A DNA stretch of 64,000 nt from NCBI GenBank assembly GCA_021773635.1, contig JAJFJV010000028.1, forward strand, positions 1-64,000. The letters are read 5' to 3'. Position 1 is the first letter of the stretch; each line of letters begins with the position of its first letter. A program made the position numbers and the translations under genes. Below, piece by piece: positions 26,270 to 27,900 of this stretch. The DNA comes from Gammaproteobacteria bacterium (GTDB lineage: Bacteria; Pseudomonadota; Gammaproteobacteria; HK1). The notes under the pieces were generated by a model, which worked only from the letters and a program-made list of their open reading frames with translations, was not told the origin of the DNA and ran no database searches.

Positions 26270-26614
26270 ATGGCTGATATGCATATGCGGGATGCGGACC
26301 AGGAACTGATCGTCCAGCGTTTCTTCAAAGAGTTTGAGAAACGCATCGAGAGTATCAATCGGGCAAGCATTGAAACCAGCATTGGTCCAGTGAGCCAGCA
26401 AGCATTCATGGATGTTGCAGGCTCGGTGGCAAATATACGCGCCCTCTATATCAAGGAAGTCATGAAGATTTCCACCAAGGGTGATTCCGAGGTACCCGAT
26501 GCCGAAACCCTGCGCCGGCTACGCAACTTTCGCCAGGCCTATGAGGAAGTGGTCAATGGTTTTGAGGCCCTCAGCCAGGCGGTTAAGCGTGGTCACCTGG
26601 ATCTTGTGGACTAA
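26270..26614 (+). CDS. Conserved-looking protein of unknown function
   Basis: I do not recognise this 114-residue protein. It has no signal peptide, membrane segment or cysteine. It looks mostly helical, with charged amphipathic stretches (QRFFKEFEKRIESIN; TLRRLRNFRQAYEEVVNGFEALSQ). It has a good start: ATG 26270 with AGGGG upstream. Codon use resembles its neighbours. It is divergent from mnmG and 20 bases upstream of crcB, so it may be the first gene of that operon. Confidence 0.7.
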   Translation: MADMHMRDADQELIVQRFFKEFEKRIESINRASIETSIGPVSQQAFMDVAGSVANIRALYIKEVMKISTKGDSEVPDAETLRRLRNFRQAYEEVVNGFEALSQAVKRGHLDLVD

Positions 26615-26634: not shown

Positions 26635-27009
26635 ATGCCCCAGGTAATCGCTATCGCCGCAGGTGGTGCCGTGGGCGCCGTGTTGCGTTACGGTCTCTCC
26701 AATCTGGTACATCTTTTTCTGGGTCGTGGCTTTCCCTTCGGCACCCTCACGGTCAATCTGCTCGGCTCCCTGCTGATGGGGTTTTTCTACGTGCTGCTGG
26801 TGGAGCGTACGCTCAGCAGCACAGAATGGCGCGCCGCCCTGCTCATCGGCCTGTTGGGCGCCTTCACCACCTTTTCCACCTTTTCCATGGAGACCCTGAA
26901 CCTGCTGGAACAGGGGGAACAGCTCCGGGCCGGGCTCAATATCCTGCTCAGCGTGTCGCTGTGCCTGCTGGCATGCTGGGCCGGACTGCAAATCGGGAGG
27001 CAATTATGA
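26635..27009 (+). CDS. crcB: Fluoride channel protein CrcB/Fluc
   Basis: CrcB forms dual-topology dimers that export fluoride. The 124-residue product has four membrane helices and the family motifs GGAVGAVLRYGL, PFGTLTVNLLGSLLMGF (pore Asn) and GLLGAFTTFSTFSME (the Phe-box and sodium-site break). No fluoride riboswitch is visible in the short 20-base gap before it. Its TGA stop overlaps the next ATG by four bases. Confidence 0.95.
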   Translation: MPQVIAIAAGGAVGAVLRYGLSNLVHLFLGRGFPFGTLTVNLLGSLLMGFFYVLLVERTLSSTEWRAALLIGLLGAFTTFSTFSMETLNLLEQGEQLRAGLNILLSVSLCLLACWAGLQIGRQL

Positions 27010-27323
27010 GAAATGCCGAGGTCACCATGGTGCGAGTCTATCTCACCGAAGGGGAAAAACGCCTCAAATCCCTGCTCGCCTATCTGCACGACGAAAGCCG
27101 GGTCCACGGGGTCACGGTCTTCCGTGGTATCAGTGGCTTTGGAAAATCGGGAGAGATGCATTCCTCCACCCTCATGGACATGGCCTTCGATCTGCCGCTG
27201 GTGATCGAGTTCTTTGACCAGCCCGAGCGGGTCAGAGCAGTACTCGACCATCTGGATACACTGCTGGAACCCGGCCACATCGTCTGCTGGAATGCCCAGG
27301 CAAATATTGCGGCATCTGACTGA
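27006..27323 (+). CDS. DUF190 family (PII-like) protein
   Basis: DUF190 proteins have a small ferredoxin-like, PII-related fold and are often coded beside crcB; their function is not settled. The 105-residue product contains the family core YLTEGEKRLKSLLAYLHDESRVHGVTVFRGISGFG in two consecutive segments, then DLPLVIEFFDQPERV. ATG 27006 overlaps the crcB stop as ATGA, so translation is coupled. A role in sensing or regulating fluoride export is an inference from this pairing. Confidence 0.9.
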   Translation: MRNAEVTMVRVYLTEGEKRLKSLLAYLHDESRVHGVTVFRGISGFGKSGEMHSSTLMDMAFDLPLVIEFFDQPERVRAVLDHLDTLLEPGHIVCWNAQANIAASD

Positions 27324-27342
27324 ACCGGGAGCAACTCACACA

Positions 27343-27552
27343 ATGGGCATCATTGCTAAATCCACCCTCACCTGCCCCCATTGCGGGCATGCAAAAACCC
27401 TCACCATGCCCACCGACTACTGCCAGTTTTATTACGAATGTACGGAATGCGGCACGCTGCTAAAACCACTGGCCGGGGATTGCTGTGTTTTCTGCTCCTA
27501 CGGAGATGTCCCCTGCCCTCCGATACAGGAACAAAAGGGGTGTTGCGGATGA
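27343..27552 (+). CDS. GDCCVxC-motif small cysteine-rich protein
   Basis: This 69-residue protein has two zinc-ribbon-like pairs (CPHCG at 11-15, CTECG at 33-37). The signature GDCCVFC (45-51) follows, then CPP and a CCG C-terminus: eleven cysteines in all. It matches the family described as GDCCVxC-domain (seleno)proteins, in which one signature Cys can be selenocysteine; here both codons are ordinary Cys (TGC, TGT). It overlaps the MerF-like gene by four bases. Binding or handling of a soft metal or metalloid is inferred. Confidence 0.85.
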   Translation: MGIIAKSTLTCPHCGHAKTLTMPTDYCQFYYECTECGTLLKPLAGDCCVFCSYGDVPCPPIQEQKGCCG

Positions 27553-27779
27553 AGGCCGGCACCCGCAAGCAACTCATCCGAATCGGGCTTGTTGGCACCG
27601 TGGTTACGGCTATCTGCTGTTTTACACCCGCACTCGTACCGCTGCTTGGCGCTCTGGGTCTGGCTGCGTGGACCGGCCATCTCGACATGGTGTTATTGCC
27701 CCTGCTGGGCACATTTCTCCTGCTAATCGTCTACGCCAGTCTCACCACCAACCCATCCAGTGATTCGCAGGACAACTGA
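27549..27779 (+). CDS. MerF-like small membrane transporter
   Basis: This 76-residue protein has two membrane helices. The first ends with the vicinal cysteine motif AICCFTP (C23, C24), as in mercuric-ion transporters of the MerF/MerT type. The second is LDMVLLPLLGTFLLLIVYASL. MerF has a second cysteine pair near its C-terminus; this protein has none. No merR, merA or merP is present in the window. It is translationally coupled to the GDCCVxC gene (ATGA), so the substrate may not be mercury. Confidence 0.8.
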   Translation: MKAGTRKQLIRIGLVGTVVTAICCFTPALVPLLGALGLAAWTGHLDMVLLPLLGTFLLLIVYASLTTNPSSDSQDN

Positions 27780-27817
27780 AGGTCAGGCTCCGCACTTGCG
27801 GTCGGGACGCAAGACAA

Positions 27818-27857
27818 AAAAAGCCCCACTTTCCCGTTTTGAAAAGTGAGGCTTTTT
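27818..27857. terminator. Bidirectional terminator between the MerF-like gene and gltD
   Basis: AAAAAAGCCCCACTTT and AAAAGTGAGGCTTTTTT form a stem of about 12 pairs with one mismatch and a loop of about nine bases. There is an A-run before it and a T-run after it, so it can end both convergent transcripts. Confidence 0.9.
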
Positions 27858-27900
27858 TCAGAGCACCGCCTATCACTGGCCCGCTGCAAAAATTCCTGAA

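Follow-up and report, generated by a model that had tools for sequence, protein, structure and literature searches.

The closest described relative of the locus reported here is the canonical mer operon (merR-merT-merP-[merF/merC]-merA, R100/Tn21), which likewise encodes MerF or MerT transporters with a vicinal cysteine pair in the first transmembrane segment (TM1) and whose MerR and MerP are also found at most relatives of our locus. The locus differs from it in having no MerA, with a GDCCVxC protein instead, and neither merR nor merP nearby. A second relative is Tn5563 (pRA2), in which merR-merT-merP is followed after 7 bp by a GDCCVxC gene and merA is absent, as in the stretch of DNA analysed here (the window, 64,000 nucleotides from a gammaproteobacterium), although Tn5563, unlike the window locus, is mobile and has MerT/MerP and merR. 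The available text of two papers on this transposon (PMC4785139, PMC4447125) lists merR, merT and merP and leaves the fourth gene unnamed. Cloned merRTP from Tn5563a lowered the mercury MIC at least 2-fold in six strains and raised it in two (available text of PMC4447125), a drop that fits Hg import without reduction; as far as that text goes, merRTP of Tn5563a mostly sensitises its host and the module alone gives no robust resistance. The accessible part of PMC4785139 regards mer operons that lack merA as defective. In that of PMC8261052, MerB-only strains raise the unsolved question of how intracellular Hg(II) is handled without MerA, and mercury is reported to induce merP1T1R5 of P. pseudoalcaligenes CECT 5344 in the accessible part of PMC10433974. 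A search of the literature readable without subscription returned no paper using the name GDCCVxC and no function, metal-binding or phenotype data for this family, and no prior account was found of an alternation between MerA and GDCCVxC. A looser parallel is offered by the metallochaperones of the ArsD and CopZ types, which we take to be small cytosolic thiol proteins encoded beside a soft-metal transporter, as GDCCVxC is; no sequence relation to them was seen, and GDCCVxC genes also occur in ars operons.

The four genes that the original prediction had described as an island were recovered at the same coordinates, all on the + strand and all assigned to their families above curated cut-offs: crcB, a fluoride exporter of the Fluc family (26635..27009; PF02537, 102.9 bits; TIGR00494, 95.3 bits), a DUF190/COG1993 protein that is weakly P-II-like (27006..27323; PF02641, 73.9 bits, cut-off 23.4), the 69-aa GDCCVxC protein (27343..27552; NF041374, 106.6 bits, cut-off 40) and the 76-aa merF (27549..27779; NF033565, 81.4 bits, cut-off 50). 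The two ATGA overlaps that it had reported were found between crcB and DUF190 (27006-27009) and between GDCCVxC and merF (27549-27552), and the common terminator corresponds to an intrinsic-terminator-like hairpin at 27817..27858, a 16-bp inverted repeat (27817-27832/27843-27858) with arms 94% complementary and a folding energy of -15.6 kcal/mol (z -2.8). The gltD gene converges on this hairpin and shares it; with runs of A and T on its two sides, the hairpin can act in both directions. It was absent from a consensus terminator scan because its loop exceeds the limit of that scan. The four-gene island did not include a 114-aa gene (26270..26614, + strand; no known family, no Pfam or NCBIfam match over cut-off), which sits between mnmG and crcB with its stop 20 bp 5' of the latter. 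Its product is 82% identical in both congeners, at the same position, and it is the probable first gene of the crcB-DUF190-GDCCVxC-merF transcription unit. At the window edge, a 16S rRNA gene on the minus strand is represented by its 5' portion (positions 1-127).

With 69 residues, the GDCCVxC protein contains the 11 cysteines counted previously, arranged as CPxC...C...CxxC, GDCCVFC, C58 and a C-terminal CC. In an alignment of 62 sequences, nine of these cysteines were invariant and the final two were present in at least 90%. All positions are Cys in the window copy, without selenocysteine and with no in-frame TGA before the stop. An AlphaFold2 model (pLDDT 88.9) showed first two strands and then two helices, all of them short. 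Fold searches with it yielded nothing usable, with no PDB match at E 0.001 or better and a best Z of 3.2, small zinc domains being among the best; a sequence search of the PDB with the family profile gave weak hits only, and VIA-align listed no metallochaperone fold, a result that excludes nothing. The CPxC/CxxC spacing suggests a zinc ribbon, although the matches by fold are weak. In the window genome, which is 99.6% complete (2.55 Mb in 46 contigs), GDCCVxC is a single gene, and the family was found in 349 of 72,556 plasmid records.

The Cys-Cys membrane protein of the original prediction, there called MerF-like, is a true MerF by its profile score. It matched solved MerF (2m67) with E 2.7e-14 over 59 residues and carries the vicinal pair in TM1 (AICCFTP). 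The structures 2m67 and 2moz belong to the same small transporter family; the matched construct has Ser for the TM1 Cys pair, and the window MerF differs from the family members of transposons in having no Cys after TM1, so that the C-terminal CC is absent. We take that cytosolic pair to be a feature of transposon MerF, lying outside the curated cut-off. When MerF proteins were inspected by eye, leaving out two short MerT pieces (L246, L054), the C-terminal CC was present in 2 of 27 encoded beside GDCCVxC vs. 4 of 8 beside MerA, a difference confounded by phylogeny. For these short-tailed proteins, the pattern looks as if GDCCVxC supplied the missing thiols.

No merR, merA or merP lies near the GDCCVxC-merF pair in the window, as had been claimed. 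In the whole genome there was a single match to the MerF query and none to MerT, and neither MerA (best 393.5 bits, cut-off 454.45) nor MerR (best 104.1 bits, cut-off 150.85) exceeded its cut-off; by eye, the best MerR match has no Cys in the C82 region. Four long matches to TIGR02053 were considered as possible MerA and rejected, none of them having a CC tail; one is a fusion with a membrane part and the others look, by eye, of E3 or glutathione-reductase type. The highest-scoring, still below cut-off, is a 710-aa frame (L101; G000:C11:92879-94222) that joins a membrane N-terminal part to a MerA-like oxidoreductase, again without CC tail. The window copy is a stripped mer form, with no merR or merP nearby.

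In one congener (G001), the whole order was kept beside mnmG, with identities of 98% for crcB, 83% for DUF190, 81% for GDCCVxC (all Cys kept) and 65% for merF; across congeners, crcB was 95-98% identical. In the other (G002), the 114-aa gene, crcB, DUF190 and merF were kept but GDCCVxC had no match: DUF190 runs directly into a merF without usual start codon, the frame being open downstream (L190), an arrangement that looks as it would after a deletion covering GDCCVxC and the start of merF. In G008 and G012, which belong to the same family, merF precedes GDCCVxC, the reverse of the window order, and the pair lies on a different contig from the DUF190 match. Overlaps between merF and GDCCVxC occur in both gene orders, as ATGA in the window and as 25 nt in Sulfitobacter and Agrobacterium plasmids. 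The conserved unit is thus the GDCCVxC-merF pair, and its linkage to crcB-DUF190 is a local arrangement of the window's genus.

This bears on the combination with fluoride export that had been proposed for the island, which was not borne out. CrcB is above the TIGR00494 cut-off in the NCBIfam profile search (95.3 bits vs. 80.45), and the DUF190 protein has solved relatives in TM0021 (1o51) and PH1503 (2dcl). A search of the entire window against Rfam at the gathering threshold matched rRNA and tRNA only, with no fluoride riboswitch, and neither CrcB nor DUF190 was found near any of 80 GDCCVxC loci fetched from other Pseudomonadota, so that the fluoride link was rejected. On plasmids, DUF190 adjoins crcB in Aquicella, with an ATGA overlap, and in Listeria, but not in A. 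caldus or Phenylobacterium, that is, in two of the four inspected out of 24 plasmid records with a match. The crcB-DUF190 genes are an ordinary, separate fluoride-exporter pair that merely shares a transcription unit with GDCCVxC-merF, and the two are unrelated modules.

The survey of GDCCVxC neighbourhoods that had been proposed as a check was carried out on 299 evenly drawn genomes of Pseudomonadota, the phylum being deduced from the relatives of the window and from its matches. GDCCVxC was found in 79 of them (76 over cut-off), about a quarter, MerF in 28 (26), MerT in 56 (48) and, at strict E-value limits, MerA in 29 (28) and SelD in 103. Genomes with GDCCVxC more often had MerF (21/76 vs. 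5/223 in those without) and MerT (29/76 vs. 19/223), whereas the values for MerA (10/76 vs. 18/223) did not differ significantly. After leaving out five of the 94 GDCCVxC rows for scoring below cut-off, 89 places were kept, of which 80 were fetched. A MerF or MerT match lay within 2 kb in 37 of the 89, always on the same strand (37/37); 34 of these fell within 600 bp and two had MerA within 3 kb. The neighbours are thus non-random. When MerP, MerC and all mer transporters were counted as partners, 39 of the 80 fetched loci had one no more than 1.5 kb away, and 41 had none of these within that distance on the same strand. In a separate set selected by similarity (the best 80 of 593 loci, kept out of the test described below), 58 had such a partner within 1.5 kb when counted by hand.

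The relation between GDCCVxC and MerA was then scored per locus, each MerF or MerT over cut-off being taken as one locus after merging within 3 kb. Among 64 transporter loci, 25 had MerA only, 33 had GDCCVxC only (window included), one had both and five had neither (Fisher p 8e-12). When the most heavily represented family (f72) was removed, the split, counted by hand, was 22, 18, 0 and 4, respectively (p 1.4e-8). Some genomes (G217 and G074 among them) have GDCCVxC-type and MerA-type loci at separate places, so the exclusion does not simply reflect two lineages. Its exceptions all belong to f72: in G198 both genes are at one locus; in G074 (contig C13), a weak MerF and a GDCCVxC gene lie 1.2 kb from MerA, a locus that fell into the MerA-only class since the MerT over cut-off lies 3.2 kb away; and in G192 GDCCVxC has a MerA piece of 256 aa at a distance of 651 bp.

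The regulators bear on which metal these loci handle. For MerR proteins whose genes adjoin the transporter and lie no more than 1.5 kb from GDCCVxC, pooling both locus sets and allowing one alignment column of play, Cys occupied the positions of C82, C117 and C126 of R100 MerR in 74 of 77. We take these three residues to be the Hg(II) ligands of MerR. Their retention makes Hg(II) the likely metal of the GDCCVxC-MerF module, as judged from sequence. The compact soft-metal module originally put forward is supported for this pair, and its metal can be specified further. MerP proteins beside GDCCVxC kept CxxC in 40 of 40, and a second cytosolic Cys pair was present in 52 of 69 transporters of MerT length beside GDCCVxC vs. 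25 of 28 beside MerA, by a crude pattern that includes MerTP fusions.

Taken together, the association with mer transporters, the near-complete exclusion of MerA and the Hg-type MerR point to a mercury module without MerA. Our preferred reading, to which we would give a probability of about 0.6, is that GDCCVxC acts in such modules as a cytosolic thiol acceptor for the Hg(II) delivered by MerF or MerT, and it may be the cell's alternative way of handling imported mercury. MerF would move Hg(II) across the inner membrane through its TM1 Cys-Cys pair, and the co-translated GDCCVxC, as a small, zinc-ribbon-like and thiol-rich protein, would take it off the transporter and then keep it bound, or give it on to a further enzyme or to low-molecular thiols, thus taking over at the step where canonical systems pass Hg(II) to MerA. 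The ATGA overlap would keep the production of both proteins in step. The components belong to known families, the alternation of MerA with GDCCVxC has no counterpart in the papers found, and from these we infer the function of GDCCVxC, including its metal binding, the hand-over of Hg(II) and the direction of transport. The window copy would still act on Hg, its merR and merP having been lost or never present. As GDCCVxC replaces MerA almost one for one at mer loci, the family becomes a candidate Hg(II) acceptor that lends itself to direct testing. If this reading is true, merRTP transposons, which many plasmids of clinical and environmental origin carry, would be annotated differently.

Hg cannot be the whole story, given that some GDCCVxC genes stand in ars operons or alone. 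Among the 41 loci without mer partners, read from gene listings, the gene lies between arsR and ACR3 in three (L262, L265, L299) and after ACR3 in another (L239). In Sulfuricella a GDCCVxC gene lies between ACR3 and a permease, and in L053 one precedes a CusA-type gene. A GDCCVxC gene was likewise seen in an arsenic operon at L006. The ars-operon genes make a wider role a live rival, in which GDCCVxC would be a general thiol buffer or chaperone for soft metals and metalloids (As(III), Cu(I), Hg(II)) working with any thiophilic transporter, MerF being one partner among several and Hg no special case. We hold this to be possible but unlikely, as mer partners were by far the most frequent, found within 1.5 kb in 39 of 80 loci vs. 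five for ACR3, and as the exclusion concerns MerA in particular. That the pair is instead a decayed mer remnant, a transporter with a passenger gene left after the loss of merA and with little present function, would agree with the absence of merR and merA from the window, with the merF of G002, which has no usual start codon, and with the terms defective or incomplete used for Tn5563-type loci in the accessible part of PMC4785139. It is an improbable explanation in view of the intact GDCCVxC of G001, 81% identical and with all its Cys, of the conserved MerR, MerP and transporter Cys at GDCCVxC loci, and of the occurrence of the family in 79 genomes out of 299, a wider spread than a passenger gene would have.

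The selenium or tellurium species offered by the original prediction as possible substrates fared worst. GDCCVxC would then be a selenoprotein-type redox protein, and the NCBI family name, '(seleno)protein', does imply Sec forms somewhere, but the selD score of the window genome falls short of the cut-off (37.8 bits vs. 125), selD was not enriched with GDCCVxC (17/76 genomes vs. 86/223 in those without), and the only read-through TGA among the 89 over-cut-off places was in a degenerate copy (G237), leaving no convincing Sec codon in the 299 genomes. With selD co-occurrence and Sec codons both negative, a selenium role was rejected and such a reading is scarcely credible.

A more specific proposal concerns the reductase itself. 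In MerA, Hg(II) reaches the active site by way of a mobile C-terminal tail with vicinal Cys; GDCCVxC has a nearly invariant CC near its very end, so that it could conceivably lend this pair in trans to a tail-less FAD disulfide reductase, forming a split mercuric reductase. The reason to keep this reading is the recurrence of a MerA-like enzyme, a FAD disulfide reductase that has the redox motif CALRGC but lacks the CC tail, at seven GDCCVxC-mer loci (L042, L050, L059, L068, L086, L095, L266), six of them from the similarity-selected set (Pseudomonadota and Bacteroidota) and one from the phylum set; three of these enzymes were scanned and, for the 25 NCBIfam families shown, stayed below every curated cut-off. 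The enzyme is absent from most GDCCVxC loci and from the listed matches of the window genome, so that a housekeeping reductase would be needed there, and we regard the split arrangement as quite improbable. In Sphingobium (L095:7901-10242), merT, GDCCVxC, a relative of the organomercurial lyase and the tail-less reductase stand in a row. MerB was rejected as a general partner of GDCCVxC, with this one clear case and a weak one (L212) among the loci scanned.

Methyltransferases were also seen in some neighbourhoods. Similar short methyltransferase-like proteins, with WWxALWPDP near the N-terminus, are encoded close to GDCCVxC in L077 and L277, and in Runella (L005) a SAM methyltransferase gene precedes merTP-GDCCVxC.
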